Below, one piece after another: positions 26,719-41,970 of a stretch of 64,000 nucleotides of DNA. Positions within the stretch are counted from its first letter, which is position 1. Each line of letters begins with the position of its first letter. Under the pieces are notes generated by a model. The model had not been told where the DNA came from. It saw nothing but the letters and a program-made list of their open reading frames with translations, and did not search any database. This stretch comes from Natrinema longum (GTDB lineage Archaea > Halobacteriota > Halobacteria > Halobacteriales > Natrialbaceae). Both the position numbers and the translations under genes were made by a program. Location of the stretch: positions 2,294,001 through 2,358,000 of the forward strand of contig NZ_CP071463.1 in NCBI RefSeq assembly GCF_017352095.1, read 5' to 3'.

Positions 26719-26951
26719 GATGGGGGCGTCAATGGCCGCTCTTGTGAAGCTATTTTCAACGGTGTGGTTAGTAACGCAGTTCTAGCGTTTCGCTCCGCCG
26801 TGGTCGCTCCGTTCACCGGTCAGCCGGCCGACGGGCGATCGTGCCGTCTCTCGAACGGAGCCGGCACGATCACGTCGGAGCGACTGAGTGTCCCATCACT
26901 GGTAGCCTCGTTACTTATTACAGTTCCACCCCGACGTGGAGGCAGGATTAC
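26719..26951 (+). promoter_or_regulatory. Promoter region of gvpFGHIJKLM
   Basis: The 233-bp divergent gap carries TTACTTATTA at 26911-26920, a TATA-like element about 32 bp before the gvpF ATG. No copy of a GvpE-type activation site could be identified with confidence. Confidence 0.4.
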
Positions 26952-27578
26952 ATGGCCGACCACGTCTACGTGTACGGCATCGTCGAGGACGCCGACCTGT
27001 CGTTCGAGGCCGAGGGGGTCGGCGGGGCAACCGAGATCCGGACGGTCGAGTACCGATCGCTGTCGGCGATCGTCTCGGAGATCGATACGACGGATCCCGA
27101 TCGGACCGACGAGGACGTCGAACGGCACAACGACGTGTTGGGGACCGTCCTCGAGGAGGGGTACACCGTCGTCCCGATGAGTTTCGGGATGGCGTTCAAG
27201 AACGCACGCACGCTCAAAGGAGTGCTTCGGGGGGCGAACCGGGCGCTCCGAAAAACGCTCGCCGAGATCGACGGCACGGTCGAGCTCGGCGTCAAGCTCG
27301 TCGACACCGGGCTCGAGGCCGATCCCGACGAGGTCCAGGCCGAGATCGGCGATCGGCTCGACGAGGTGTCGATCAACGACACGGACGACGACCTGTTCAG
27401 CGATCGGCTCGTGCTCAACCGCTCGTATCTGGTTGATCGGGACGAGCGCGATCGCTTCGACGACGCGATCGACGACGTCCGTGAGGCGTACGGCGACGCC
27501 CTCACCGTCCAGTATACCGGCCCGTGGGCACCCTACAACTTCGTCGACGTCCACATCGGTGCCGACAGGGGGAGTTGA
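26952..27578 (+). CDS. gvpF: Gas vesicle protein GvpF
   Basis: This 208-residue GvpF/GvpL-family protein has VYVYGIVEDADL at the start, VVPMSFGMAFKNARTLKGVL in the middle, and the family's hallmark YTGPWAPYNFVDVHIG at the end. GvpF/L proteins are accessory factors needed early in gas-vesicle assembly and bind other Gvp proteins. It is the first gene of an eight-gene operon; its TGA overlaps the gvpG ATG by one base (TGATG). Confidence 0.95.
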   Translation: MADHVYVYGIVEDADLSFEAEGVGGATEIRTVEYRSLSAIVSEIDTTDPDRTDEDVERHNDVLGTVLEEGYTVVPMSFGMAFKNARTLKGVLRGANRALRKTLAEIDGTVELGVKLVDTGLEADPDEVQAEIGDRLDEVSINDTDDDLFSDRLVLNRSYLVDRDERDRFDDAIDDVREAYGDALTVQYTGPWAPYNFVDVHIGADRGS

Positions 27579-27829
27579 TGTTCCTGTTCGACGACCTGCT
27601 GGTGCGGCCGTTCGTCTCCTTGCTCGACGTTTTGCACACCCTCGCACTGACCGAGCTCTACGACGTCGAGGCGCTCAGGGACGATCTCAAGGAGAACCGC
27701 TTGCTCTACGAGATCGGCGAACGGCCCGAACCGGCGTATCGCGAGCGCAAGGCGGAACTCGAGGCGGAACTGGAACGGGCCCGGGAGCTTCGGGCCGAAC
27801 TCAGCGACAAGGTAGAGGTGAAAGGATGA
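27578..27829 (+). CDS. gvpG: Gas vesicle protein GvpG
   Basis: An 83-residue protein beginning MFLFDDLLVRPFVSLLDVLH, a hydrophobic helix, followed by a charged coiled coil (ERKAELEAELERARELRAEL). This is the GvpG layout. It is a minor accessory component required for vesicle formation in halophiles. Confidence 0.92.
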   Translation: MFLFDDLLVRPFVSLLDVLHTLALTELYDVEALRDDLKENRLLYEIGERPEPAYRERKAELEAELERARELRAELSDKVEVKG

Positions 27830-27847
27830 TCACGAACGGGGACCACC

Positions 27848-28381
27848 ATGACTGACGACGACCGGGGTACCGACCGCGAAACGGACCGACACACCGACCG
27901 CGAGAACGATCACGACGGAGACGAGCAGGCGTCCGCTCCCCTCGAGGGGCTCCGTCGACTCCTGGAAACGCTCGACGACCTCGAGGCCGGTGAACGCCGT
28001 GACGGCTCGAGACGGATCGACGGCCACGGCGTGTCGGTCGACGGCGAGTACGAGCTGTCGATCGGTTTCGGGGACCGATTCGAGCGGCGAACGAACGCTG
28101 CCGACAGCGAGACGACGGGCAGGGCAGCGCCTCGCTCGAGCACCGTCGCGGACGACGCGTATCACGTCGGGCTCGTCGAGTACGACGACGAGACGCTGCT
28201 CGTCGCGGATCTCCCGGGGGTCGACGCCGAGGACGTCGCGGTCCGGCGAGGCGACGGGCTCGAGGTGGTCGTCGACGGCGAGGTGATCGAGCGGGTCGAC
28301 CACGCGGGACGACCGAGCCGTCGGCGATTCCACAACGGCCTGCTGACCGTCGTCGTCGACGGAGGTGAGCAGGGTGACTGA
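27848..28381 (+). CDS. gvpH: Gas vesicle protein GvpH (Hsp20-like)
   Basis: A 177-residue protein with a highly charged Asp/His/Arg N terminus, a central region (VDGEYELSIGFGDRFERR) and an alpha-crystallin/Hsp20-like C-terminal part (DETLLVADLPGVDAEDVAVR, GLEVVVDGEVIERV). GvpH proteins are thought to act as chaperones of other Gvp proteins. Its end overlaps gvpI. Confidence 0.9.
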   Translation: MTDDDRGTDRETDRHTDRENDHDGDEQASAPLEGLRRLLETLDDLEAGERRDGSRRIDGHGVSVDGEYELSIGFGDRFERRTNAADSETTGRAAPRSSTVADDAYHVGLVEYDDETLLVADLPGVDAEDVAVRRGDGLEVVVDGEVIERVDHAGRPSRRRFHNGLLTVVVDGGEQGD

Positions 28382-28715
28382 CCGCGAACGCATCGTTCGA
28401 CGGATCTCGCAAACGCGCGACGCCGCTCGCGCTCGGCTGCTCACGCAACACCGAAAACTCGCGCGGGTTCGGGAACGAAACCAGCAGCGGGCCGAACGGC
28501 AGGCACAGCAGGAGCGTGGCGATCGAACCGACGGCGACGAAGGTACCGATCGGGCGGGTCGACCGCAGTCGTCGCGGGACGACGTGCCCGGATCGTGGTC
28601 GTCGGTGCCCGAACGGCCGCCGACGCGAGACGAGACGCCGACGGCACCCCATCGCCCGCGGCTGTACGGCCACCGACTGCGCCGACGGGCGAACGGAACG
28701 GAGGACGACGAATGA
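28374..28715 (+). CDS. gvpI: Gas vesicle protein GvpI
   Basis: A 113-residue basic protein (VTDRERIVRRISQTRDAARA), rich in Arg and Gln, ending RPRLYGHRLRRRANGTEDDE. A very basic GvpI between H and J is the rule in haloarchaea. GTG 28374 was chosen because it is close to the gvpH stop; another GTG at 28365 is possible. The stop overlaps the gvpJ start (ATGA). Confidence 0.85.
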   Translation: MTDRERIVRRISQTRDAARARLLTQHRKLARVRERNQQRAERQAQQERGDRTDGDEGTDRAGRPQSSRDDVPGSWSSVPERPPTRDETPTAPHRPRLYGHRLRRRANGTEDDE

Positions 28716-29104
28716 GCGGTCCCAAACCCACCCGGAATCAGGGCGACCTCGCGCAGATGCTCGACACGCTGCTCGACAAGGGCGTCGTGATCAACGCCGA
28801 CATCGCGGTGACCGTCGGTGACACCGAGTTGCTCGGCGTCCAGATCCGGGCGGCGATCGCGTCCTTCGAGACGGCCGCCGAGTACGGCCTCGAGTTCCCC
28901 GGCGGGACGGACATGGCACGCGTCCGCGAGGCCGCCGGCGTCGACACACCGCGGGTGGCAACGACCGACGAGGCAGCCGAGGATGCGACCCTCGAGAAGA
29001 CCGATTCGAGTCCGGCGATCGACGCCGTCGATGCCGGTGAGGCGGTCGCTCCCGACGATCGGGAGGGGGCCGACACCAGTGGCAGGGAGAACGACGACCG
29101 ATGA
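28712..29104 (+). CDS. gvpJ: Gas vesicle protein GvpJ (GvpA-like)
   Basis: This 130-residue protein carries a GvpA-type core: LAQMLDTLLDKGVVINADIA, VGDTELLGVQIRAAIASFET. The C-terminal half is acidic and variable (EDATLEKTDSSPAIDAVDAG). GvpJ is a minor GvpA homologue thought to sit at vesicle tips or to nucleate assembly. It overlaps gvpK by 4 bp. Confidence 0.93.
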   Translation: MSGPKPTRNQGDLAQMLDTLLDKGVVINADIAVTVGDTELLGVQIRAAIASFETAAEYGLEFPGGTDMARVREAAGVDTPRVATTDEAAEDATLEKTDSSPAIDAVDAGEAVAPDDREGADTSGRENDDR

Positions 29105-29454
29105 CGTCGACGATCGACCTCGACGGCGACGGGGAGAACATGCGGGCCGGGTTGCTCTCGCTCGTCCTCGCGATCGTCGAGATCCTCGAGGACTCCCTCG
29201 AGCGCGAGGCGCTCCGGCGGATGGAGTCGGGCCAGCTCGACGACGACGAGATCGAGCGACTCGGCCAGCAACTCGCCCGACTCGAGGCCGAAATCGAGCG
29301 CCTCGAGCGCGAGGAGGGGATCGAGGAGGACGTCGCCGGCCTCCGATCGGACCTGGATTCGCTGATCGACGACGCGATCTGGGACCTGTTCGACGACGAC
29401 GCCGTTCCGGGCGTCGGCACCGACGGCGGAAAACCGGGGATGACTGACCGATGA
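29101..29454 (+). CDS. gvpK: Gas vesicle protein GvpK
   Basis: A 117-residue protein with the GvpK core NMRAGLLSLVLAIVEILEDS, LEREALRRMESGQLDDDEIE and a helical ERLGQQLARLEAEIERLE. GvpK is an accessory factor required for vesicle formation. The start overlaps gvpJ and the stop overlaps gvpL (ATGA at both junctions). Confidence 0.93.
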   Translation: MTSTIDLDGDGENMRAGLLSLVLAIVEILEDSLEREALRRMESGQLDDDEIERLGQQLARLEAEIERLEREEGIEEDVAGLRSDLDSLIDDAIWDLFDDDAVPGVGTDGGKPGMTDR

Positions 29455-30266
29455 CGGTCCCGGAGCGGACGGACGGGGCGGACGACCTCGCTGACGGCCG
29501 CTACGTGTACTGTCTCGTGGAGCCAGAGGGCGAGCCGCCCGCGAGGCTCCCCGTCGAGGGAATCGACGGCGAGTCGCCGCGAGTCCTCGCGGCCGGGGGC
29601 GTCGCCGCGGTCGTCCACGAGACCGACACGCTCTACGACAGCGACGATCCGGCGACGATCCGCCGCTGGCTGCTCGCCCACCACCGGGTCGTCGAGGCCG
29701 CGACGGACCGGTTCGGGACGCCGATCCCGTTCCAGTTCGACGTCGTCGTCCAGGGCGGCGACGAGACGGTGCGGTCGGTCCTCGAGTCGGCCGCGGACGA
29801 GATCGAGGCGGCCGTCACCGACGTCGCGGGCCGACGGGAGTATCGCATCGAACTATTGTTCGAACCCGACGCGACGGTACCCGATCCCGAGGGCGACCTC
29901 GCCGCGCTTCGCGAGCAAACCGAGGCAGCCGGCGAGGGGACGGCCTTCCTGCTCGAGAAGAAACTCGAGCGAAAGCGAACGGAACTGCGACGGGAGCGAG
30001 CAGCCGCCCTCGCGGCCGACCTCGAGGCGGCCATCGACGAGGTCGCCGTCGCCACGGCGTCGGTCGACGGCGATCGACTGGGACTGGGCGACGACGATCG
30101 GGAAACGGTCACGCAGATCGCCGTATTGGCCGATCACGACCGCGAGGACGACCTGGGTGCCCGGCTCGATCCGATCGCGGACCGATCGGGCGTCGCCGTT
30201 CGGTTTACCGGGCCGTGGGCACCGTACTCGTTCGTGCCGGATATCGATCTGGAGGGCGGTCGGTGA
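29451..30266 (+). CDS. gvpL: Gas vesicle protein GvpL (GvpF/L family)
   Basis: The 271-residue second GvpF/L-family member of the operon. It has GRYVYCLVEPEGEPPARLPV, TPIPFQFDVVVQGGDETVRS, a long helical region (FLLEKKLERKRTELRRERAA), and RFTGPWAPYSFVPDIDLEGG at the end. GvpL binds most other accessory Gvps and may organise the assembly complex. Its TGA shares its last base with the gvpM ATG. Confidence 0.93.
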   Translation: MTVPERTDGADDLADGRYVYCLVEPEGEPPARLPVEGIDGESPRVLAAGGVAAVVHETDTLYDSDDPATIRRWLLAHHRVVEAATDRFGTPIPFQFDVVVQGGDETVRSVLESAADEIEAAVTDVAGRREYRIELLFEPDATVPDPEGDLAALREQTEAAGEGTAFLLEKKLERKRTELRRERAAALAADLEAAIDEVAVATASVDGDRLGLGDDDRETVTQIAVLADHDREDDLGARLDPIADRSGVAVRFTGPWAPYSFVPDIDLEGGR

Positions 30267-30499
30267 TGGAACCCGAGAAGAACGACGACGCCGTCGTCGA
30301 CCTCGTCGACGTGTTGCTCGAGGACGGCGCAGTACTCGCTGCGGACGTGGTGATCAGCGTCGCGGATATCCCCTTGATCGGACTCCGGCTCCGGTTGCTC
30401 CTCGCGGGCATGACGACGATGCGGGACCACGACATACTCGCGGACGCCGACGATGCCATCAGGGACGCTGGTCGCCGGGCGGAGTCGTACGACAGCTGA
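30266..30499 (+). CDS. gvpM: Gas vesicle protein GvpM (GvpA-like)
   Basis: A 77-residue GvpA homologue with VVDLVDVLLEDGAVLAADVV and SVADIPLIGLRLRLLLAGMT. GvpM closes the operon. GvpJ and GvpM are related to the structural protein but are minor and essential. The gene is convergent with the PH-SHOCT gene; only 20 bp separate the stops. Confidence 0.92.
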   Translation: MEPEKNDDAVVDLVDVLLEDGAVLAADVVISVADIPLIGLRLRLLLAGMTTMRDHDILADADDAIRDAGRRAESYDS

Positions 30500-30519: not shown

Positions 30520-31239
30520 TTAGAGCTGGTCGAGGAGGTCCCGCTTCTTCTCTTCGAACTCCTCGTCGCTGATCACGCCCTGCTCGTTGAGTTCGGCGAG
30601 CCGTTCGATCGTCTCGAGGGGGTCGTCGGCCGAGTCGGTGCCGCCGGCCGCCGACGGCGCGGCGTCGCCGCCCGAGTCACCGTTTTCGCCGCCGTCCGAG
30701 GACATCGGGGAGCGCGATGCCGGCGATTCGGCTCGAGCGTCGATCGAGTCGCCCGGCGACCGTGCCCGATCGCGATACCGCCGCAACGCGTCGGTGGCGG
30801 CGGCGAGTGCCGACTCCTCGTAGGAGGAGTCGATCCAGCAGTGGTAGGTCGTGTCGTCGGTGCGGATCACCAGCCGGTGTTTCATCAGGCCGCGACTGTA
30901 CTCGACGCCGGTCACGTCGCCGTGGGGCACTTCGAAGAACTCGTCGCCGTCCTCCTTGCCGACGATCATGAACGTTCGCCTGTCGGTGATCGTGATCGCG
31001 GCCAGCCCGCCGCTGTCCGGCGTGATCGTGTCCCGCTTGCCGCCGATTCCGATCCCCTTCATCTCGTTGAAGAAGGTGTAGTGGGGTTGTTCGTTCGACT
31101 CGAGGTAGGAGACGACCGGCTCGTCGTAAAGGTAGAGCTGGCTGTACCGGTCGCCGCCCGCGAGCAACTCGACCGTAACCGAGTCGTGGTCGGCCGCGTC
31201 GACCATCGCGCGAATTCGTGGTTCGTCGATATCGGTCAT
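30520..31239 (-). CDS. PH-like plus SHOCT domain protein in the rhodopsin operon
   Basis: A 239-residue soluble protein. Residues about 30-150 look like a bacterial/archaeal PH-type fold (EQPHYTFFNEMKGIGIGG, AAITITDRRTFMIVGKEDGD, RGLMKHRLVIRTDDTTYHCW). An acidic Ser/Gly-rich linker follows, and the last 35 residues are a SHOCT module (DDPLETIERLAELNEQGVIS). PH-SHOCT proteins typically bind other proteins or membranes. It lies 11 bp after the sensory-rhodopsin stop, so it is the third gene of an htr-sop-SHOCT operon. Its position suggests a role in output or in linking the sensor to the vesicle apparatus, but that is inference. Confidence 0.75.
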   Translation of the reverse strand: MTDIDEPRIRAMVDAADHDSVTVELLAGGDRYSQLYLYDEPVVSYLESNEQPHYTFFNEMKGIGIGGKRDTITPDSGGLAAITITDRRTFMIVGKEDGDEFFEVPHGDVTGVEYSRGLMKHRLVIRTDDTTYHCWIDSSYEESALAAATDALRRYRDRARSPGDSIDARAESPASRSPMSSDGGENGDSGGDAAPSAAGGTDSADDPLETIERLAELNEQGVISDEEFEEKKRDLLDQL

Positions 31240-31250
31240 AGATCTGGCTC

Positions 31251-31961
31251 TCAGTTCGGTCCGACTCCGAACCCGGAGAGGGCGTCGAGTTCGGGCAGTT
31301 GTTCGAGGCTCGTCTGGCTGTTCAGGGCGATCGCGCCGAACAGGATCTTCGCGATCAGGTCGGCGTAGGTGTACAGGAGCGCCTGCATCGTCGGCTCGAG
31401 GACCCCCAGCCCCGCCGGGCTGAGTATCCAGATCACGGGATAGATCGTCCAGATGATCAGCGTCAGGTTCCGGAGCTTGCCGAACAGGGCGACGATCGCA
31501 CCCGGTCGGTCGGTGACCGCCTCGCGGATGCCGGCGGTGAGCATGTAGATCAGGGCGATGTAGGCGACCGAGCCCACCGCGAAACTGCCGTACGTCAGCG
31601 CGGGGCCGGCGAGCAACTCGCCGACGAGCCCCGAGCCCATGACGACGACGTCGAGGACGATCAGCAGGCCGATTCGGCCGCGGTCGAGGCCGGCGAGCAA
31701 TCCGAGATAGAGGATCAACAGCGGCGTCGCGAGGAGCCACTGGCCGTACTTCGCGAGATTGACGACGTTTCCCTCGACGGTCAGGAACCCGATCCCGAGC
31801 AGCATGAACACGTACGCCCCCGCCGCGATCCCGGCGATACCGACGAGAATCGCGTGGTAGGTCCGGTTGCGTGCGTCCGTGACGAACGCTCGAACGAAGA
31901 CGGCGGTTCCGAGGAGCATGACCGCGAGCCCGACGGTGTAGTGGACGTTGACGGCGACCAT
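31251..31961 (-). CDS. Sensory rhodopsin II-like retinal protein with altered active site
   Basis: A 236-residue seven-helix rhodopsin, closest by eye to sensory rhodopsin II (shared runs LGLLAGLD, LRNLT, IYP.IW). Lys205 in YADLIAKILFG is the retinal Schiff-base lysine. Asp201, Trp75, Trp171, Tyr174, Trp178 and Tyr199 are kept. The helix C active site reads AKYGQWLLATP, so Gln74 replaces the counter-ion Asp, Lys71 the conserved Arg, and Ala78 the first Thr. Ala204 replaces the Thr that signals through Tyr174 in SRII. The gene follows the transducer gene with one base between the transducer stop and its ATG, the usual htr-sop order. It should bind retinal, but its colour and photocycle must differ from known SRII. 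Confidence 0.9.
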   Translation of the reverse strand: MVAVNVHYTVGLAVMLLGTAVFVRAFVTDARNRTYHAILVGIAGIAAGAYVFMLLGIGFLTVEGNVVNLAKYGQWLLATPLLILYLGLLAGLDRGRIGLLIVLDVVVMGSGLVGELLAGPALTYGSFAVGSVAYIALIYMLTAGIREAVTDRPGAIVALFGKLRNLTLIIWTIYPVIWILSPAGLGVLEPTMQALLYTYADLIAKILFGAIALNSQTSLEQLPELDALSGFGVGPN

Positions 31962-31962
31962 C

Positions 31963-33264
31963 TCAGCTCTCCCCCGTTCCCTCGGTGACGCCCTGCGGGG
32001 CCTCGAAGTCGAACCCGTCGCTGTCGCCGGAATCCGGCTCCTCGCCGGAGCCGATCGACGAGAGCGCGTCGACCCGTTCGGCGACCGACTGGATCGCTTC
32101 GGCCTGTCCGTCCGTCGCGTCGCTGATGTTCTCGATCGTCATATCGAGATCGTCGACGAGTTCGGCGATCTCCTCGAGGGAGTCGAGGGCCCGCCGGACC
32201 GTGACCGACGCGTCGGCGGTTCGTTCGTTGACGGCCTGGATCCCGGCGACCGTCTCGTCGGTCTGGGACTGGATCCGATCGATCCGCGTCTCGATCTCGT
32301 CGGCGGCCGCTTTGGTCTCCTCGGCGAGTTCGCGGACCTCGTCGGCGACGACGCTGTACCCCTGGCCGCTCTCGTCGGTCCGCGAGGACTCGATGCGTGC
32401 GTTCACCGCGAGAATGTTCGTCTTCCGGGCGATCTCGCCGATCAACCGAACGATCTCGCCGATCTCCTCGACCTCCCCCTCGAGGGTTTCGATCTCCGCG
32501 GCGGCCGTTTCGATCTCCGACTCGACGGTGTCCATCTCCGTGATCGCCGACGCCGCCGCGTCGCGACCGACCGTCCCGGCCTCGGCGGCCCGCGCCGACG
32601 TCGTCGCTACCTCGTCGGCGGAGGCGGCGACCTCCTCGGCGGTCGCCGAGAGGTTGTCCATCTCCCGGGAGATACTCGTCGTCGTCCGCTGGAGTTCGGC
32701 GATCGTCGTGTTGATCGATTCGCCGATCTCGGTGAGCGCCTCGCTCTCGCTTTCCGCGTCGACCCGTCGAGAGAGGTCACCGTCCATGACGTCCTGTAAC
32801 ACTTCGTTGTAGTGTTCCGCGGTCGACTGGAGGTTCTCGTTGCGGAGTTCCGTCTCCCGTTGTCTGCGTTCGGCGGTTTCGATGCGCTCTTGCAGCGAGT
32901 CACGCATGGCAGCGAGACCGGTCGCGAGCTGACCGATCTCGTCACGTCGGCTCGAGCGAAAGGAGACGTCCATGTTGCCCTCCTCTAGCTCGTTCGCCTT
33001 CGACGAGAGGAGCCGAAGCGTGATCGCGGTGTTGCTCCCGAAGGTGACGCCGACCAGCACGAGGCTGATGACCGACGCGAGGACGAGCCCGGCGAATCCG
33101 GACGTGACCGACGACCGAACGGCCGGGTCGTCGATCGGCGCGACGATCTGTACGTAGATGTACCCCGCAAACACGACGATTACGACCCCGGCAGCGGCCA
33201 GCACCCCTGTCAGCCTGGTCGCGATCGTTCGTGTTCCCCCACTAACGGTCCGTGTTTGCTCCAT
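31963..33264 (-). CDS. Htr-type transducer (methyl-accepting protein) for the adjacent rhodopsin
   Basis: A 433-residue two-helix transducer. TM1 spans about 20-44 (GVLAAAGVVIVVFAGYIYVQ) and TM2 about 57-80 (FAGLVLASVISLVLVGVTFG), with only about 12 residues outside, as in HtrII proteins that receive signals through the membrane from a rhodopsin. Two HAMP domains follow (about 81-133 and 150-195), then a coiled-coil signalling domain (200-400) with a methylation-site-like SATAEEVAAS. The kinase-binding tip reads ARKTNILAVNARIESSRTDE, diverged from the usual EQTNxLALNAxIEAAR. An in-frame ATG at 33309 would add 15 residues. It is the first gene of the htr-sop-SHOCT operon. Confidence 0.9.
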   Translation of the reverse strand: MEQTRTVSGGTRTIATRLTGVLAAAGVVIVVFAGYIYVQIVAPIDDPAVRSSVTSGFAGLVLASVISLVLVGVTFGSNTAITLRLLSSKANELEEGNMDVSFRSSRRDEIGQLATGLAAMRDSLQERIETAERRQRETELRNENLQSTAEHYNEVLQDVMDGDLSRRVDAESESEALTEIGESINTTIAELQRTTTSISREMDNLSATAEEVAASADEVATTSARAAEAGTVGRDAAASAITEMDTVESEIETAAAEIETLEGEVEEIGEIVRLIGEIARKTNILAVNARIESSRTDESGQGYSVVADEVRELAEETKAAADEIETRIDRIQSQTDETVAGIQAVNERTADASVTVRRALDSLEEIAELVDDLDMTIENISDATDGQAEAIQSVAERVDALSSIGSGEEPDSGDSDGFDFEAPQGVTEGTGES

Positions 33265-33451
33265 GTACGAGTACGTGCGAAGCCATCGTTCACTACGTAA
33301 TGGCTCCATAGTTAGGGATCGTGACCGAAACGAACGCCAATAGGTTCGGCGGCGAGACGGGTCGACGGCTGTGGCGATCGCTCCCGAAGCCGGATCCCCC
33401 AGGGAGCGAACGGACGGCGGGTTTTTGCCGGAGCAATCCAACGAGGAATGC
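33265..33451. promoter_or_regulatory. Divergent promoter region htr / cheW
   Basis: The two arms of the sensory module start here and run apart. For cheW, GGTTTTTGCC at about 33420-33429 lies 24-32 bp before the ATG, fitting a TATA element. On the htr side no clear TATA is visible, leaving the exact htr start (33264 or 33309) unresolved. Confidence 0.35.
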
Positions 33452-33973
33452 ATGGAGGGACACCGCGAGTCCGCCGACGACGTCGGCGGGGAGGGGGAGC
33501 CGCCAGTCGAGTTGATCACCGCGTCGCTGCCGGATCTCACCTACGGCCTCGAGTCCGGCCGCGTCGTCCGGGTCACGTCGTTCGAGGGCGTGACCCCCGT
33601 GCCGGGAAGCGCGACTGCGGTCGACGGCGTTACCGAGATCGACGGACGGGTAACGGTGGTCGTCGACGCCGCGCGGTTGCTCGGTGGGCAGGGACGGGAG
33701 CCGACCGAGACGGACGAACTCATCGTGCTCGATCGCGACGAGCAGCGGTCGATCGGGCTCCGAACCCCGCGCGGCGTCGGCGTCGAGACGGTCCCGGCCT
33801 CGCGGTTCGAGCAGCCGTCCGCAGCCGATCCCGCCGCCTCGAGTCCCGTCCCGTCGGACGGCGGCGGGCTCGACGACGCCTTGCTCCGGGCCGCCGTGAC
33901 GCCGGCGGAACCTGCGGAGCCGCCACGGCTCGTCCTGGACGCGGCCGGTATCGCTGCCGCCGTCGAGAGCTGA
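33452..33973 (+). CDS. cheW: CheW-like adaptor
   Basis: A 173-residue protein with a CheW/SH3-like fold: ELITASLPDLTYGLESGRVV, VTPVPGSATAVDGVTEIDGR, VTVVVDAARLLGGQ and ELIVLDRDEQRSIGLRTPRG. The C-terminal about 50 residues are a polar extension ending in a small helix. CheW links transducer tips to CheA. It is divergent from the transducer operon and about 165 bp ahead of cheY. Divergence from typical CheW sequences is considerable. Confidence 0.8.
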   Translation: MEGHRESADDVGGEGEPPVELITASLPDLTYGLESGRVVRVTSFEGVTPVPGSATAVDGVTEIDGRVTVVVDAARLLGGQGREPTETDELIVLDRDEQRSIGLRTPRGVGVETVPASRFEQPSAADPAASSPVPSDGGGLDDALLRAAVTPAEPAEPPRLVLDAAGIAAAVES

Positions 33974-34137: not shown

Positions 34138-34503
34138 ATGTCAGTGGGGATTCTCGCCGTCGACGATTCGGGATACATGCGAAACCGGATCAAGATGATT
34201 CTGGGGGACGACGTCACGGTTGTCGCGGAAGCCAGCGACGGGGTCGAAGCGGTCAAAACGTACGAAAAACGCGGTGACGAGATCGATCTCGTCCTGATGG
34301 ACATCATCATGGAGAAGGCAAACGGCGTGAAAGCCACGTCGGCGATCAAACAGCTCGACCCGGAGGTCAGCGTCATCATGTGTACGAGCGTCGGCCAGTA
34401 CGAGAAGATGAAACTCGCGGCGAAAGCCGGTGCCGACGGCTACGTGACGAAACCGTTCGACCGGGCGGAACTGCTCGAGGCCATCGAGAGCGTCTCCGCA
34501 TGA
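34138..34503 (+). CDS. cheY: CheY response regulator
   Basis: A 121-residue single receiver domain with the full phosphorylation site: Asp9-Asp10, phospho-acceptor Asp55 in LVLMDIIMEK, Thr83 in VIMCTSVGQ and Lys105 in GYVTKPFDRA. It would be phosphorylated by the adjacent CheA. Whether its target is the archaellum switch or a gas-vesicle factor cannot be told. Its stop overlaps the cheA start (ATGA). Confidence 0.95.
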   Translation: MSVGILAVDDSGYMRNRIKMILGDDVTVVAEASDGVEAVKTYEKRGDEIDLVLMDIIMEKANGVKATSAIKQLDPEVSVIMCTSVGQYEKMKLAAKAGADGYVTKPFDRAELLEAIESVSA

Positions 34504-37295
34504 GCCGGGAGCAGTTCGTTCGCGAGACGCGATCCGGCATCGATCGGCTCGCCGACGGACTCCTCTCCCTCGAGGACGGGGGAAACGAGGACCGACTCTC
34601 CGAACTGTTCCGAACCGCACACACTCTCAAGGGGAACTGCAGCGCGGCTGGGTTCGATGCCCCGGCGCGCGTCGCTCACGCGCTCGAGGACGTCCTCGAT
34701 GCGATCCGAGCCGATCGGCTCGAGCCCGACCCGGACGTGGTCGACGCCACGCTCGTGGCCGCCGACGTTCTGGACGCGATGGTCGACGAAATCGCTGAAG
34801 ACGGGCGCGTACGGATCGATCCCGACGGGACCGTCGAGACGATCCGGACCCTGCTCGAGACGCGGGCGACGGACGACCCGCCAGTGGAACCGGCGGCCGA
34901 CGACGACACGGACCAGCCGTCGACGCTCGCCGAGGAGGCGATTCCGGAACCCGGATCGGGCGACGGATTGACCGCGGAGGAGGCACTCGAGCGGGCGAGT
35001 GGCTTCGACGACCTCGAGTCGCTGTCCGCGGACGTCGACGACGGCACTCTCGAGGGGTCGGGATCCCTCGACGAACTGTTCGACGACGAGCCGGGTGACG
35101 AGCCTGCAGGGGTGGCTGCGGACGGCCCCGCTGCGGGGTCCACACCGACGAGCGAGACGGCCACGGACGAGCCCGAACCGGCAGCGGACGAGACGACTCC
35201 CGACGAGGCTGCGACGGCGACTGAGCCATCCGACGTCGAGATCGCGGGGACCGAGGGGGCCGGCCGCGAGGAGACGGTCGACTTCGATCGCGTCCGCGAC
35301 GACGTCGAGACGCTCGACGCGGGGACGATGGACGACGCACTCGAGGGGGTCCAGTTCGGCGACGGCGGGGCCGACGACGACGTGACCGTGACCGAACTCC
35401 TCGAGTTGGCGGAGACCGACGACAGCGACGGCCCCTCGAGCTCCGAGCGCCCTGCCTCCTCAACCGGGGATCGCCGCGAGTCACCGACTGCCGACGGTGC
35501 CAAAGCACAGACCGGTGAGGACGAGGAATCCACGAGTGGCGAACGCGCCGAGCCACAGCAGGCCGAATACACCGAGTCACAGACGGCCCAACACGCCGAG
35601 GCGTCGACCGCTGACCGGGCCGAACGGGCGATGGACGCTGCCGGCATCGACGACCAGCAACTCCTCGAGAACATCCAGCAACTCGAGCCGGCCGAGCCGG
35701 CCGAGGATCCCGGCTCGTTCGTGTTCGATACCGACGTGGCGACGAGCCAGGAGGACGGTGACACGGGCGGAGCGGCCGATCTCGGCGACGGTGAGCTCGA
35801 CGACGATCCCGGTTTGGCGACGGAGCGCTCCGTGACCGACGGCGACGAACGCGACTTTCTGGCGGCTGCTGTCGACGGGGGCGACGTCCAGGAAGGATCG
35901 GACGCAACGCTGGCGGAGACCAGCGACCGGGCCGTTCCCGACGACGCCCTCGCGTCGTTCGACCGGGACGCGAACGTTCGCGAGTTCGTCGCGGCCTTCG
36001 GGGACTCCTTCGACGGGTCGATCACGGACGACCGAACCAGGGCGGTTTCGGACGCCGTGACGACGATCCCGTCCTCGGTCCTCCCGATACCGTCGTCCGA
36101 CGACGACGGGACTGCCCGCGAGGAGCGTGGCGGCACGATCACCGTCGAGGGGACGACCGCTGATCGCCTGCTTCAGTTGACCGAGCGGCTGACGACGGCG
36201 ACGATGGCTCTCGAGCGTGACGACGGCGGCTCCCCCTCCGATAGCGCCGACGAGCCCACCCGGATGCGCGAGTTACGCGAGATCGCGACCGATCTCGAGG
36301 AGACGGTCACTGCGGTCCGGCTCCAGCCCCTCGAGCGTGCCTTTTCGGGCCTCGAGCGGACCGCACGACGGGTGGCACGGGAGGCCGAGACTCGCGTCGA
36401 CCTCGAGACGAGCGGGGGGTCGATCGAGCTGGATCGGGACGTGGTCGCCGCCCTCGGGGATCTGCTGGTCCACCTCGTCCGCAACGCGGTCGATCACGGG
36501 ATCGAACCGGCCGACGAGCGAGAGCGAGCGGGCAAGTCGCGCACCGGAACGGTCGCGATCCGGGCGCGGAAGGACGCCGACGAAGTCGTCCTCGCGGTGA
36601 CCGACGACGGGCGCGGCCTCGACGCCGACGAACTCTGCCGTGTGGCCATCGAGGAGGGCATCGTCGGTCGGGAGCGGGCGGCGGCGATGAGCGACGAGGC
36701 GGCACACGAACTCGTGTTCCATCCGGGACTGTCGACCGAGGCCGAGGTGACCGACGTCAGCGGCCGTGGAGTCGGGATGGATGTCGTCGCCGAGACGATC
36801 ACTGGATTGGACGGCGACATCGAGGTCGAGAGCTCCCCCGGCGATGGCACGACGTTCCGGCTTCGGGTCCCCGTCTCCGTCGCCGCGACGGAAGTCCTGT
36901 TCGTCGAGGCCGACGGCCGCCCGTACGCGATTCCGGCCGCCGATATCGCACGCCTCGAGGAGTTCGACCCGGCACGGGCCGACGGCGACGCATACGCGAT
37001 GACCGTCACCGGTGAGGACGAGCCCGAGACGGAGCGACGCTCGCTCGTCCGGCTGTCGGAGTGGCTGGGAGCCGACGGCGACACCGATCCGACGGTCGTC
37101 GTCCACGTCCGCGATGATCGCGGCGGTCGGTCGATCGCCTGTGACGACGTCGGCGACTGGCGACGAGTCGTGGTCCGGCCCTACGACGACATCCTCGCCG
37201 AGACGCCCGGTATCGACGGTGCAACGCTGCTCGGGGACGGCGAACTCGCGAACGTCCTCGACGTGACGGCGATCACTGACGGAGGCTCACGATGA
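34500..37295 (+). CDS. cheA: CheA histidine kinase with an unusually long acidic linker
   Basis: This 931-residue kinase has a P1 phosphotransfer domain with His41 in LFRTAHTLKGNCSAAGF. Residues about 125-543 are a low-complexity Asp/Glu/Ala/Thr/Ser linker. Next come a P3 dimerisation domain (about 545-640) and a P4 ATPase domain with N box LVRNAVDHGIEP, DDGRGLD, FHPGLST, GRGVGMDVV and GDGTTFRLRVP. The P5 CheW-like domain fills about 790-931. All catalytic motifs are intact. The linker makes it roughly 250-300 residues longer than most CheA proteins. The stop overlaps cheC (ATGA). Confidence 0.95.
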   Translation: MSREQFVRETRSGIDRLADGLLSLEDGGNEDRLSELFRTAHTLKGNCSAAGFDAPARVAHALEDVLDAIRADRLEPDPDVVDATLVAADVLDAMVDEIAEDGRVRIDPDGTVETIRTLLETRATDDPPVEPAADDDTDQPSTLAEEAIPEPGSGDGLTAEEALERASGFDDLESLSADVDDGTLEGSGSLDELFDDEPGDEPAGVAADGPAAGSTPTSETATDEPEPAADETTPDEAATATEPSDVEIAGTEGAGREETVDFDRVRDDVETLDAGTMDDALEGVQFGDGGADDDVTVTELLELAETDDSDGPSSSERPASSTGDRRESPTADGAKAQTGEDEESTSGERAEPQQAEYTESQTAQHAEASTADRAERAMDAAGIDDQQLLENIQQLEPAEPAEDPGSFVFDTDVATSQEDGDTGGAADLGDGELDDDPGLATERSVTDGDERDFLAAAVDGGDVQEGSDATLAETSDRAVPDDALASFDRDANVREFVAAFGDSFDGSITDDRTRAVSDAVTTIPSSVLPIPSSDDDGTAREERGGTITVEGTTADRLLQLTERLTTATMALERDDGGSPSDSADEPTRMRELREIATDLEETVTAVRLQPLERAFSGLERTARRVAREAETRVDLETSGGSIELDRDVVAALGDLLVHLVRNAVDHGIEPADERERAGKSRTGTVAIRARKDADEVVLAVTDDGRGLDADELCRVAIEEGIVGRERAAAMSDEAAHELVFHPGLSTEAEVTDVSGRGVGMDVVAETITGLDGDIEVESSPGDGTTFRLRVPVSVAATEVLFVEADGRPYAIPAADIARLEEFDPARADGDAYAMTVTGEDEPETERRSLVRLSEWLGADGDTDPTVVVHVRDDRGGRSIACDDVGDWRRVVVRPYDDILAETPGIDGATLLGDGELANVLDVTAITDGGSR

Positions 37296-38578
37296 AAATC
37301 GACGTTCCGACGCTTGGCACGTTCTACGAGATGGCACGGGAGGGTGCCGGCATCGCCGCCGGTCGCCTGACGAAGATGACCGGCGTTCCGACCCGTGTGG
37401 GTGTTACCCGCATGAACTTCATGCAGCTGTCGGAGCTGCGCGCCGAACTCGACGACGGCACCTCGAGCATCGGGACCGCGATCGAACTCTCCGGCGGGTT
37501 CGAGGGCGACTCGCTGCTGGTTTTCGACGAGGACAGCGCCCGGACGATCGCCCGCGAACTCGTCGCCGACGTTCCCGCCGACGGCGTCGACAACATCGCC
37601 CGGAGCGCCCTCCTCGAGGTCGGCCAGGTGACGACCAGCGGCTTCGTCGACGGCTGGGCCGACATCCTCGGAACCAGCATCGACGCCTCGACGCCGACGT
37701 ACCTGGCCGGGACCGATCCGACGCCGTTTATTGGCGCCCTCGGCGCGGTCGACGGTGATCTCGCCTTGCTGTTTCGCAGCCGGATCGAGACCGTCGGTGC
37801 CGACGTCGACGTCGACCAGTACGTCGTCCCCACCAGGGAGACCGTCGAGGCGCTGCTCGAGCGCAGCAGCGAGGGCGGGACCGGCATCGAGTTCGACAAG
37901 CTCGCGGGATTCAACCGGATGGCAGAGCGGGGATCGACGGAGATGGCGAACAGCCTGGAGACGATGACCGGGCTGTCGATGGACGCCGAGATCCGGCGGA
38001 TCAACTTCCTCTCGCTGGATACGATCGCCGACGAGATCCCCAACGAGCGGCTGGTGAGCGTTGCCTTCCGGTTCCGTGGCACGCCCAGCGGCTACCTGCT
38101 GTTCGTCTTCGACGAGCCCTCGGCGCGGACGCTCATGGAGGCGGCGCTGCCCGGCAGCACGAGCGAGGGTCGCTTCGGCGCGATGGAGCGCGACGCCATC
38201 TCCGAGTTCGGCAACGTGATGGCCAGTGGCTTCCTCGACGGCTGGGCGAACGTCCTCGAGACGACGATCGAGCACACGACGCCCCGCTACACGCACGACC
38301 TGGGTGCGTCCGTCGTCGATCCGCTGATCATCGGCCTGAGCACCGACCAGGAGTTCGCGTTCGTCTTCGATACGCTGTTGTCCGACGCCGAACGCCGGAT
38401 CGACGTCAGCGTGTTCGCGATCCCCGACGAGGACTCCCTGGAGCGGGCACTGGCCGAACTCGACGTCGACCGAATCGACGACGCGCCGGTCACGGCGACG
38501 TTCGACCTCGCACGCGCCGACGCGGACGGGGAAGGGCCCGCGGAACTGGCGACGCCCGAGGAGGTGACCGACCGATGA
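37292..38578 (+). CDS. cheC: CheC, tandem double-domain CheY-phosphatase family protein
   Basis: A 428-residue protein made of two CheC-like halves (about 1-190 and 200-400). The phosphatase signature is (D/S)xxxExxN followed 23 residues later by P. The second half has it intact (Asp301, Glu305, Asn308, Pro331). The first half has Ser105, Glu109, Gln112 and Pro135, so the Asn is replaced. The N-terminal signatures of both halves are degenerate. CheC binds CheD and dephosphorylates CheY-P. The stop overlaps the cheD start. Confidence 0.88.
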   Translation: MKIDVPTLGTFYEMAREGAGIAAGRLTKMTGVPTRVGVTRMNFMQLSELRAELDDGTSSIGTAIELSGGFEGDSLLVFDEDSARTIARELVADVPADGVDNIARSALLEVGQVTTSGFVDGWADILGTSIDASTPTYLAGTDPTPFIGALGAVDGDLALLFRSRIETVGADVDVDQYVVPTRETVEALLERSSEGGTGIEFDKLAGFNRMAERGSTEMANSLETMTGLSMDAEIRRINFLSLDTIADEIPNERLVSVAFRFRGTPSGYLLFVFDEPSARTLMEAALPGSTSEGRFGAMERDAISEFGNVMASGFLDGWANVLETTIEHTTPRYTHDLGASVVDPLIIGLSTDQEFAFVFDTLLSDAERRIDVSVFAIPDEDSLERALAELDVDRIDDAPVTATFDLARADADGEGPAELATPEEVTDR

Positions 38579-39093
38579 AGACGTTCGACGACGATCCAGA
38601 GCCCGCCTCCGAACGAGGCGACACCGTCTCCGTCGGCGTTTCCGAGTACGTCGTCGCGGCCGACGGCGAGACGCTGATCGCCTACGGCATCGGCTCGTGT
38701 CTCGCGATCGTGCTCTTCGATCCGGAGGCGAACGTCGGCGGCCTCGCACAGGCCGTGTTACCCGATCGGGATCACGGCGAGGGCGAGGCGACCGGAAAGT
38801 TCGTCGACGCGGCGACCGACGCCCTGTTGCGCGAGATGGCCGAACGCGGCGCGAGCGTCGGCCGGGTTGAGGCACGCCTCGCCGGTGGCAGCGAGATGAT
38901 CGACTTCGAGGAGCTCGAGACCGGCATCGGCGACGCGAACGTCGCGGCCGCTCGAGAGCGCCTCGATGCGTTCGACGTGCCGGTCGTCGCGACCGACACC
39001 GGCGGTGACTACGGACGGACGGTCACGTTCGAGACGGCAACCGGGGACGTGACCGTTCGGACCGTCGACCACGGGACGAGAGAACTGTCGTAG
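38575..39093 (+). CDS. cheD: CheD-like protein lacking catalytic residues
   Basis: A 172-residue CheD fold with GIGSCLAIVLFDPEANVGGL and EARLAGGSEMIDFEELETGI. The catalytic Cys is present (Cys42). The His expected 17 residues later is Gln59 (in GGLAQAVLP), and the Thr expected six residues before the Cys is Ala36. CheD normally deamidates receptor glutamines and binds CheC; here deamidase activity is doubtful and a binding role is more likely. It is the last gene of cheYACD. Confidence 0.88.
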   Translation: MKTFDDDPEPASERGDTVSVGVSEYVVAADGETLIAYGIGSCLAIVLFDPEANVGGLAQAVLPDRDHGEGEATGKFVDAATDALLREMAERGASVGRVEARLAGGSEMIDFEELETGIGDANVAAARERLDAFDVPVVATDTGGDYGRTVTFETATGDVTVRTVDHGTRELS

Positions 39094-39126: not shown

Positions 39127-39522
39127 TTACAGCTCGTCGCGCGAGTCGCCGCGCTTGTACCGTTCCGTCAGCCCGTACTCGACGACGGCGTCCCCGTCGA
39201 TGACGAGTTCGTACCGGCCGAGGATGTCCTGGGTGTCCGGCACGGCGGATCGCTCGAGGACTTCAACGAGCACGCGCCAGCCGCGGTCGGTCCGTTCCGC
39301 TCGGATGACGCTCTCGGGGTCGTTCTCGAGCAACTCGCTCGCGACTGCCATCGCGTGTCGGCGAGCCTCGATGATACCCATCGACGGCTCCGAGCTGGCA
39401 GCGGACTCCGTGGCCCCCGACGCGTCCGCCTCGGTGCTCGAGTCCGGCGCGTCGTCCTCGATCGATCGATCCGGGTCGATCTCGCCTGCAGCGTCAGGGT
39501 CGGCGGTCCCCCCGTCGCTCAT
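39127..39522 (-). CDS. gvpO: Gas vesicle protein GvpO
   Basis: A 131-residue protein whose first half is an acidic Ser/Asp/Ala leader and whose second half is the GvpO core: RRHAMAVASELLENDPESVI, RTDRGWRVLVEVLERSAVPD, DILGRYELVIDGDAVVEYGL. GvpO is needed for vesicle formation in haloarchaea. It is the last gene of gvpACNO; its start overlaps the gvpN stop. Confidence 0.92.
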   Translation of the reverse strand: MSDGGTADPDAAGEIDPDRSIEDDAPDSSTEADASGATESAASSEPSMGIIEARRHAMAVASELLENDPESVIRAERTDRGWRVLVEVLERSAVPDTQDILGRYELVIDGDAVVEYGLTERYKRGDSRDEL

Positions 39523-40541
39523 GTCGGCACCTCCACGTTCGAGACGACCCGCTCGACGTCCGTGCGAAGCGACTCGAGGCCGTCGCTGGTGGGCACTTTC
39601 GACGCGAGCACGTCGACGCAGACCGCCGCGAGGGTCGATGCGCTCCGATCGGTGCCGGCGGTGAACCCCTCCGTCGCCATGATCGCCGCGCGCGTCCCGA
39701 CCGGGACGGAGACCTCCTCGCGCAACCGTCGGACCGTGTCGACGACGGCGGCGATCGTCTCTGCGTCGACGTCGTCGACGTGGGCAGCGACGATCCGCCG
39801 CTCGGTCTCGGCGTCGTAGAAGTCGAGGTGGATGCCAACGAGCCGATCGAGCAACGCGTCCTGTGGCTCGTGGACCCCGGCGTACTCCGTCGAGTTCGAG
39901 GTCAGGATCGCCCGGAACTCCGGGTGGACGTCGACGTAGCGGTCGCTGCCCGTCTTGCCGGGCAACTCGAGGACCCCCTCCTCGAAAACCGACAGGAGGA
40001 CGTTGTTCGCGATCGGTTTGGTCCGTGAAAACTCGTTGTAGACGAGCGTCGCACCCTCTCGGACCGCGACGGTCAGCGGGTTGTCAACCCAGCGCTGGCG
40101 AACGATATCGGTGCTTTTCTGGACGTTGTGGACGTACTTGTCCCGGACCGAGTGTCGTTCGGTGCCGGAGTGATCCCCGACGAGGTCGCTCGTCCCGAGG
40201 TCGGCGTCGCCGTTGACGAACGCAACCGGCCGATCGCGCTCCTGGGCGACCGACAGCGCCAGTGCGGTCTTCCCACACCCGGTCGGTCCGACCAGGTGGA
40301 CGGGGCGATCGACCGAAAGCCAGCGATCGATCCGGTCGCGGACCGCCGTGACCGCCGGCGTCTCGACGAACGGTCCGGGATCCGGCGTCGGGAGCGATCC
40401 TGCCGACACCTCGCCCGCCGACGCATCGCGCGCGGGTTCGTCGGTTCGTCGGGTACGGTCCCGACGCTCGCGGCCGCGTTTCTCCTCGCGGGACGTTCTG
40501 ACTCGCCCGCCCCGAACCCGCCGATCCGAGCTGCCGGTCAT
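39519..40541 (-). CDS. gvpN: Gas vesicle protein GvpN, MoxR-type AAA+ ATPase
   Basis: A 340-residue AAA+ protein with a basic 55-residue leader, Walker A GPTGCGKTALA (Gly85-Lys91-Thr92), the Walker B region GATLVYNEFSRTKP and the sensor region AILTSNSTEYAGVHEPQDAL. GvpN enlarges vesicles, probably by remodelling the GvpA/GvpC shell. The leader is longer and more basic than in many GvpN proteins. Its start lies close to the gvpC stop. Confidence 0.94.
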   Translation of the reverse strand: MTGSSDRRVRGGRVRTSREEKRGRERRDRTRRTDEPARDASAGEVSAGSLPTPDPGPFVETPAVTAVRDRIDRWLSVDRPVHLVGPTGCGKTALALSVAQERDRPVAFVNGDADLGTSDLVGDHSGTERHSVRDKYVHNVQKSTDIVRQRWVDNPLTVAVREGATLVYNEFSRTKPIANNVLLSVFEEGVLELPGKTGSDRYVDVHPEFRAILTSNSTEYAGVHEPQDALLDRLVGIHLDFYDAETERRIVAAHVDDVDAETIAAVVDTVRRLREEVSVPVGTRAAIMATEGFTAGTDRSASTLAAVCVDVLASKVPTSDGLESLRTDVERVVSNVEVPT

Positions 40542-40553
40542 CGATTCACCCCG

Positions 40554-41576
40554 TTAGTCCTCGGTCCCATCATCGGTGAATGCCTCCTCGAGTTCCGCAC
40601 GGTGGTGGACCAGGAAGGCGACCAGTTCGTCCTTTTTGGCGGCGTTGAGGTTCCCGTCGTATCCGACCCGGTTTGCGGCCTGCTTGAGCTTGCCGTACTG
40701 GAGTTCCCGCAGCCGTTGCTCGAACGCCTCGGCCGAGGCCGCTTCGTCGCCGACGGCGTCGCTGCCGTCGGGCTGCTCGGCCGATCCCGTGTCGTCGCTC
40801 GACGCCGCGGTGGTCGTCGCGTTGGGCTCGACATCGTCCAATTGGTCGGTTGCGGTGTCCTGCTCGTCGGTCGATTCTTCCTCCGTCGGTTCGGACACCT
40901 CGTCGGCCGTCGCCGAACCATCGTCGGGAGTTGGCTTCGAGGACCCTTCGCCGTCCCTCTCGGTCGTTCCGGCCGACGCCGTCGTCTCGAGGGCGTCTTC
41001 GCCGTAGAACTCGCGGGTGAACGACTCGAACGCCGCCCGTTTGTCCGCGATTCCCTCGACGTTCGCCGCGACGCCCTCCCGAAACGCCTCGCGATCGGCC
41101 GCGAGGCGCTCGGTCGCGTCGGTAAACGCCGTTCGCGTCGATTCGAACGCCGCGACGAGCGCGTCGACGTCGGCCAGGAACGCGGTCGGATCGCCCGTCG
41201 CCGCGGCCTCCTCGCGGATCCGTTCGGCGTCGGCAGCCATCCGTTGGGCGAGCGCGTCCGTCTCGGATCGGTTCGCCTCGAGGTCCTCCTCGAGGGCGCG
41301 GGCGTACTCGTCGAACGCGTTTCCGGCCGACTCCATCTCGGCCCGGCGGGTCGCGACGTCTTCGGCGAACGCCGCTACCGACGCGTCGAACGCGTCGCCG
41401 GCCCTCGCGAACTCCGCGGCGAGTTCGTCCGCCGCTTCGCGGGCGTCGTCCATCGACGACTGCTTCGCTTCGACGTCCGCGGCGAACGCCGCGGTGTAGG
41501 CGTCGAACTCCTCGAGGGTCGTCTCGAGGTAGCCGCGTCGGTTCCTGTACTCTCGTCGTTTTTGTGAGACACTCAT
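40554..41576 (-). CDS. gvpC: Gas vesicle outer-shell protein GvpC
   Basis: A 340-residue protein. Residues about 15-185 are four or five imperfect helical repeats of about 30-40 residues (FDAYTAAFAADVEAKQSSMD, FDASVAAFAEDVATRRAEME, FDEYARALEEDLEANRSETD, and others). An acidic Thr/Asp/Ser spacer follows, then a conserved C-terminal domain (QAANRVGYDGNLNAAKKDEL). GvpC wraps the outside of the shell and stiffens it. It is somewhat shorter than some halophile GvpC proteins. Confidence 0.93.
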   Translation of the reverse strand: MSVSQKRREYRNRRGYLETTLEEFDAYTAAFAADVEAKQSSMDDAREAADELAAEFARAGDAFDASVAAFAEDVATRRAEMESAGNAFDEYARALEEDLEANRSETDALAQRMAADAERIREEAAATGDPTAFLADVDALVAAFESTRTAFTDATERLAADREAFREGVAANVEGIADKRAAFESFTREFYGEDALETTASAGTTERDGEGSSKPTPDDGSATADEVSEPTEEESTDEQDTATDQLDDVEPNATTTAASSDDTGSAEQPDGSDAVGDEAASAEAFEQRLRELQYGKLKQAANRVGYDGNLNAAKKDELVAFLVHHRAELEEAFTDDGTED

Positions 41577-41612: not shown

Positions 41613-41834
41613 CTACGCTTCGGGTGCCGTTGCGGCCAGTTCCGCCTGTTCTATCTTCGCGATTTCCTCCGCATAGTGGAGGAAGGTGTCGACCGATGCC
41701 ACGACGACGCGTGCCTCGACGGTCAGGATTTCGATCCCGACCAGCGAGATCCGTGCGAAGGCGTCGACGACGACGCCCTTGTCGAGGACGCGATCGAGTA
41801 CTTCAGCGAGACTTGACGAATCAGGTTGTGCCAT
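41613..41834 (-). CDS. gvpA: Gas vesicle major structural protein GvpA
   Basis: A 73-residue protein that forms the ribs of the vesicle: [60 protein letters not shown]. The sequence is nearly that of other haloarchaeal GvpA. The start at 41834 (MAQPDSSS) is fixed by conservation and by a strong promoter; a longer upstream frame is spurious. It heads the gvpACNO operon. Confidence 0.97.
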
Positions 41835-41863
41835 CTGTATGATCCAACGACTGCTAAGGAAAG

Positions 41864-41881
41864 TTATATAAAAAGGTTTCG
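41864..41881 (-). promoter_or_regulatory. gvpA promoter (BRE plus TATA box)
   Basis: On the minus strand CGAAACC (BRE-like, 41875-41881) precedes TTTTTATATAA (41864-41874), which ends 30 bp before the gvpA ATG. It is among the clearest archaeal TATA boxes in the window, fitting a highly expressed structural gene. Confidence 0.75.
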
Positions 41882-41970
41882 GGCTCCCTATGTTGGAGCG
41901 GGGCTTCCGAGCGGATCTGCGGCGGGAATTCACGATCGTCGCCGTTCCGCTGGTGTAATCGATCTCACAG

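Follow-up and report, generated by a model that had tools for sequence, protein, structure and literature searches.

A sensory rhodopsin with glutamine at the proton-acceptor site, encoded within a gas-vesicle gene cluster of Natrinema longum

Natrinema longum encodes a rhodopsin with Gln where sensory rhodopsin II (SRII) has its proton-acceptor Asp, and the gene stands with that of an HtrII-like transducer, a divergent set of che genes and gas-vesicle (gvp) genes. Taken together, the data leave about an even chance that this light receptor and its own Che set act on gas vesicles, and hence buoyancy, rather than on archaellum rotation. The full pathway that this would imply is proposed more tentatively, and we put it somewhat below even: a neutral-Gln sensory rhodopsin, signalling through a dedicated Che phosphorelay to gas vesicles, would allow phototaxis by floating without an archaellum. 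The features of the window, that is, the whole stretch of 64,000 nucleotides that was analysed, are listed in Table 1.

Table 1. Features of the gas-vesicle cluster and photosensory-Che module in the window
Feature	Position	Strand	Basis or remark
FkbM-type methyltransferase gene	25717-26718	-	adjoins gvpF
gvpF	26841..27578	+	NCBIfam GvpL/GvpF partial matches; position
gvpG, true start inside ORF	27524..27829	+	NCBIfam GvpG, 127.5 bits
gvpH	27848..28381	+	Pfam GvpH
putative gvpI	28365..28715	+	position only; no Pfam match
gvpJ, true start inside ORF	28595..29104	+	NCBIfam halo GvpJ
gvpK	29101..29454	+	Pfam GvpK
gvpL	29451..30266	+	NCBIfam GvpL, 275 bits; Pfam
gvpM	30215..30499	+	Pfam Gas_vesicle; NCBIfam halo GvpM, 94.9 bits, below cut-off of 109
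SHOCT/bacterial-PH-domain protein, third gene of htr-rhodopsin operon	30520..31239	-	Pfam SHOCT, bPH_3; adjoins rhodopsin in all 3 genera
rhodopsin, Gln74 at counter-ion site, 236 aa	31251..31961	-	Pfam PF01036; NpSRII alignment; clade with 2 relatives
Htr-like transducer, 2 TM + HAMP + MCP signalling domain with hairpin tip	31963..33264	-	Pfam HAMP, MCPsignal; NpHtrII match; kept in 3 genera
cheW, divergent from htr, likely start near 33452	33371..33973	+	Pfam CheW, 49.5 bits
cheY, phospho-acceptor Asp and Lys motifs	34138..34503	+	Pfam Response_reg
cheA, Hpt (AHTLKGN), ATPase and CheW-like domains	34500..37295	+	Pfam Hpt, HATPase_c, CheW
cheC	37292..38578	+	Pfam CheC
cheD	38575..39093	+	Pfam CheD
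gvpO	39127..39522	-	Pfam GvpO
gvpN	39519..40541	-	NCBIfam TIGR02640, 371 bits
putative gvpC	40554..41576	-	position between gvpA and gvpN; no Pfam or NCBIfam match
gvpA, true start inside ORF	41613..41933	-	NCBIfam halo GvpA, 128.5 bits; Pfam

Results

Key residues of the rhodopsin

A single minus-strand open reading frame, running from 31961 to 31251, encodes an SRII-like rhodopsin that matches the Bac_rhodopsin family with 169.7 bits. Among solved structures, those of Natronomonas pharaonis SRII (NpSRII; E 1e-45) come closest, with residues 2-220 aligned. Across helix C the alignment is gap-free, placing K71-Y-G-Q74-W75-L-L-A78-T79-P80 against R72-Y-I-D75-W76-I-L-T79-T80-P81, so that K71 stands for R72, Q74 for D75 and A78 for T79. 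A reading of this DNA from its letters alone (the sequence-only reading) had named these three substitutions, and all three are real; it had added that the claim would fall if another Asp took the counter-ion position. Helix C of this rhodopsin contains neither Asp nor Glu, leaving no alternative helix-C acid for that place.

In helix G, the motif YADLIAK aligns with YLDLVTK of NpSRII. Y199, D201 and K205 are kept, which bears out the claim that the retinal Lys and the second counter-ion remain, and residue 204 is Ala, as had been read. Tyr174 and all of the pocket Trp residues are likewise retained. Both hallmarks of a type 1 rhodopsin are therefore present, namely the Bac_rhodopsin fold and the Schiff-base Lys of helix G (K205). 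Since Lys205 and Asp201 are in place, as is the aromatic pocket, the protein most likely binds retinal. Retinal is probably made in the host, as the N. longum genome encodes other retinal-type rhodopsins with this Lys. The earlier idea of a non-light sensor loses ground, because neither the Schiff-base Lys nor Asp201, Tyr174 or any pocket Trp has been lost.

Distribution of the Gln clade

Among 125 genomes of the family, two other genera each provide one close relative (56 and 58% identity); the next-best matches in this set are ordinary SRIIs of about 40-45% identity. The relatives belong to Halorubellus salinus GX3 (G013) and to the metagenome-assembled genome Natrialbaceae archaeon Tc-Br11_E2g14 (G115; 91% complete, locus on a short contig). 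Both were located in genome contigs with an alignment as query; a scan with a single protein as query gave no match. In an order-level set of 392 genomes, the same three proteins score above 400 bits and all others at or below about 210 bits. At E 1e-80, the 146 and 170 genomes searched from two further haloarchaeal families yielded no clade member, and a search of plasmids returned distant rhodopsins only.

In NpSRII numbering, Q75, A79, A204, D201, K205 and Y174 are common to all three clade proteins. These were compared with 109 other haloarchaeal rhodopsins, a set without halorhodopsins whose underlying search is biased towards BR/SR. Of these, 108 have Asp at position 75 and the remaining one has Glu; 108 have Thr at position 79, and all have Arg at position 72, where clade members carry K, Q or R. 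At position 204, the set is divided among A (38), T (36) and S (35). Further changes run through the whole clade, including A79, A200 and H36. On these counts, neither Ala204 nor Lys72 can serve as a clade marker: the exchange of Arg for Lys in helix C is real and not fixed in the clade, and the loss of Thr204, also real, is nothing special. Halorhodopsins carry Thr at position 75 (the Asp85 position). Assignment as a halorhodopsin was rejected, as the window protein has Gln there and a transducer in its operon.

The three Gln proteins form one clade in the tree (SH-aLRT 100), apart from the clade that contains NpSRII (98); the branching order among the main clades is weakly fixed, and what the tree supports is the separation of SRII from the Gln clade. 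Membership of SRII itself was also rejected, given Gln74 in place of Asp75, Ala204 in place of the Thr partner of the retained Tyr174, and a position outside the SRII clade. By alignment and tree, the Gln is real, conserved and clade-defining. The sequence-only reading had asked whether Gln74 and Ala204 together mark a clade tied to gvp genes; the Gln does, with gvp linkage in 3/3 genomes, the number on which both clade and linkage rest, and Ala204 is the part that drops out.

Operon partners

The transducer gene, htr, lies upstream of the rhodopsin gene, and a single base separates its stop codon from the rhodopsin ATG. The TM and HAMP part of its product matches NpHtrII (E 1.4e-15), giving the locus the general trait of sensory rhodopsins, an NpHtrII-like two-TM transducer encoded in the rhodopsin's own operon. 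In the SRII complex, Asn74 of NpHtrII bonds Tyr199 (PMC3274258). Here, this transducer-contact Tyr199 is kept in the rhodopsin, and the Asn74 place in the transducer is Ser.

The third gene of the operon encodes a SHOCT/PH protein, a possible effector. Matches above 400 bits occur only at the three rhodopsin loci. At E 1e-15, matches are found in 76 of the 392 genomes, the distant ones reaching about 150 bits. Within about 1.5 kb of the distant homologues, the 17 loci inspected contain no match to rhodopsin, che or gvp genes, and use of the SHOCT/PH gene as a marker of gvp clusters was accordingly rejected.

Dedicated che genes

The divergent che set reads cheWYACD where the contig is complete, and the module contains neither cheR nor cheB. 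cheW occupies the same place in Halorubellus and, truncated by the contig end, in Tc-Br11_E2g14, where the module cheA falls past that end. The window CheY is 67% identical to the CheY of the Halorubellus module. In all three genomes, CheR and a second CheA are encoded in a canonical che cluster elsewhere, which makes the module an extra set; in N. longum the module cheA is distinct from the canonical CheA at G000:3117728. The locus thus has one mark of a Che pathway with non-flagellar output: complete CheA, CheW and CheY with their own receptor, separate from the canonical set. For CheA, CheC and CheD, the module copies resemble one another only slightly more than they resemble the canonical ones, or no more at all; assembly of the che set on more than one occasion would therefore be possible. 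The canonical che cluster of N. longum (G000:C1:3101300-3120600) adjoins large genes whose translations look pilus-type.

Linkage to gas-vesicle genes

In the window, the photosensory-Che module lies between two gvp halves, gvpFGHIJKLM and gvpO-N-C?-A. The putative GvpC is 61% identical over 46 aa near its C-terminus to a Halorubellus protein encoded at the same place. Gas vesicles of haloarchaea are reported to react to light, oxygen, temperature and salt; a review counts light among the factors that determine their synthesis and names GvpD and GvpE as the regulators (PMC4390858). Neither gvpD nor gvpE was recognised in the window cluster, which appears to lack these usual regulators. Scans for sigma-70 promoters, terminators and tandem repeats gave nothing useful in models that do not cover archaeal promoters.

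The htr-rhodopsin-SHOCT/PH operon stands beside the divergent cheW and next to gvpM in 3/3 genera, and this block is syntenic at about 56% protein identity. In the direction of the window, the Halorubellus order is gvpO-N-C-A, gvpF-to-M, SHOCT, rhodopsin, htr and cheW-Y-A-C-D; gvpF-M, SHOCT, rhodopsin, htr and che are collinear between the two, and gvpACNO alone is on the other side. The Tc-Br11_E2g14 contig carries gvpJ-K-L-M, two SHOCT genes, rhodopsin, htr and the start of cheW, and then ends. A second gvp cluster is present in the N. longum genome (G000:C1:2909800-2918200), with a similar one in Tc-Br11_E2g14; in these two clusters there is no match to the rhodopsin, htr, che, SHOCT or putative gvpC genes.

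Motility output

In archaea, CheF links CheY to the archaellum. CheF was undetected in all three genomes, and control genomes gave matches. Archaellin is absent from the N. longum genome and from Tc-Br11_E2g14 (91% complete). Halorubellus has archaellins, and its archaellin genes (G013:C8:28600-37800) occur in a genome in which no CheF is detectable.

Discussion

The protein would be a retinal-based light receptor of a new haloarchaeal clade in which Gln sits where SRII has its proton acceptor, so that Asp201 alone, perhaps together with chloride or water, may act as counter-ion of the Schiff base. Chloride is a possible extra counter-ion in brine. Loss of Asp75 makes normal Schiff-base proton transfer impossible, and the photocycle is predicted to be M-less, slowed or otherwise altered; altered deprotonation and colour, as the sequence-only reading expected, are a reasonable prediction by analogy. 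Two laboratory precedents bear on this prediction. The title of reference 102 in PMC3274258 calls NpSRII D75N M-lacking, and that of Spudich 1997, cited in PMC5292967, describes constitutive signalling by HsSRII upon disruption of the salt bridge between the Schiff base and Asp73. These suggest that the receptor would signal from a non-M state, or from a dark-active state that light changes.

From there, the signal would pass through the operon partner, the HtrII-like transducer, to the dedicated CheW-CheA-CheY-CheC-CheD. CheY or the SHOCT/PH protein may in turn connect to Gvp proteins or to gvp transcription, and the final output would be gas-vesicle formation or assembly. Gas vesicles are proposed as the output on the strength of the gvp linkage together with the missing archaellar output; the module's own cheWYACD genes and the SHOCT/PH gene, which the sequence-only reading did not describe, likewise move the likely output from swimming to buoyancy.

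Among the alternatives, an ordinary phototaxis receptor fares best, and it appears unlikely. Here, the protein would be a variant of SRII that uses Che to steer archaella or pili, with the gvp neighbourhood incidental. The SRII-like receptor, the intact MCP tip of the HtrII-like transducer, the large pilus-like genes beside the canonical che cluster of N. longum and the archaellins of Halorubellus all fit this proposal, and in Halorubellus a motility output would be possible; in N. longum, which has neither archaellin nor CheF, a Che pathway perhaps acts on pili. Against this proposal stand the undetected CheF in 3/3 genomes, the missing archaellin in 2/3, and a separate Che set that in each of the three genera lies within or next to the gvp genes.

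Rather less probable is a constitutively active receptor, in which the absent salt bridge between Asp and the Schiff base fixes a permanent signalling form and light becomes an off-switch or a weak modulator. The HsSRII title favours such a receptor, by analogy with which the protein could be locked on instead of acting as a sensor, and Gln is fixed in the clade. Against it, the clade-wide changes (A79, A200, H36 and others) may restore a dark-off state. This reading is moreover a sub-case of the light-to-gas-vesicle pathway, and sequence fits the two equally.

An opsin that senses something other than light, binding retinal or another ligand as has been proposed for haloarchaeal opsin-related proteins, is improbable. 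Both the proton acceptor and Thr79 are lost, and haloarchaea commonly encode opsin-related proteins that lack the retinal Lys (PMC4915679). One is encoded in N. longum itself: a rhodopsin-like receptor (G000:C1:2087899-2088522), adjoining an MCP gene, has Arg for the retinal Lys (SYIDFLTRTGF). The protein L131 (G105) likewise has Arg at this position, plus Glu at the counter-ion site. Unlike the opsin-related proteins, the Gln clade has its retinal Lys and Asp201 intact, together with the aromatic pocket.

Least probable is neutral hitch-hiking of photosensory-Che and gvp genes on one mobile island: linkage is no proof of function, such an island would look similar, the clade's presence in 3 of several hundred genomes from distant genera fits lateral transfer and some sister gvp clusters lack the module, but about 56% identity with kept gene order implies long-term selection on the linkage, and gvpACNO moved while gvpM, SHOCT, rhodopsin, htr and che stayed together.

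The proposed pathway from the Gln receptor to gas vesicles can be set against known systems. Signalling from rhodopsin through Htr to Che is known, the kinds being SRII, SRI and SRM. Like SRII of N. pharaonis, the window receptor is a seven-helix protein of the retinal type; the two are about 40% identical and have Lys205, Asp201, Tyr174, Tyr199, V108 and G130 in common, and as in SRII-HtrII a two-TM HAMP transducer shares the operon of the receptor. The window system differs in the Gln75, Ala79, Ala204 and K/Q/R72 of the clade, in the clade's place outside the SRII clade, in a short transducer with one recognised HAMP, in its own Che set and in its location in a gvp cluster. The NpSRII D75N and HsSRII Asp73 laboratory mutants share a neutral residue at the proton-acceptor place and the predicted loss of normal M; the window Gln, in contrast, occurs in nature, is conserved and comes with further changes specific to the clade.

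SRM-HtrM of Haloarcula marismortui is comparable in that it pairs a sensory rhodopsin of a third haloarchaeal kind with a short transducer. HtrM is described as having no tip for CheA/CheW docking, and a gas-vesicle link of SRM goes unmentioned (PMC6450946). The window transducer is set apart by this description, as it keeps the docking tip and has its own CheA and CheW. The opsin-related proteins are rhodopsin-like receptors too, some of them thought to serve non-motility outputs (PMC4915679); the window protein was rejected as one of them because it keeps Lys205. Like the haloarchaeal gvp clusters regulated by GvpD and GvpE, the window cluster has a complete set of gvpA, F, G, H and J-O; unlike them, it holds a photosensory Che module, with gvpD and gvpE unrecognised. 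In the open-licence literature searched, no title or abstract places a sensory rhodopsin or a set of Che proteins within a gas-vesicle cluster, and no photoreceptor for haloarchaeal gas vesicles was found.

The receptor is a natural counterpart of the Asp75-neutral SRII mutants, and it would show whether signalling by sensory rhodopsins needs Schiff-base deprotonation. The locus brings together candidates for the receptor, the transducer, the kinase and the response regulator, along with a possible effector, which makes the light response of gas vesicles testable by simple gene removals. In these organisms, light may control floating rather than swimming.
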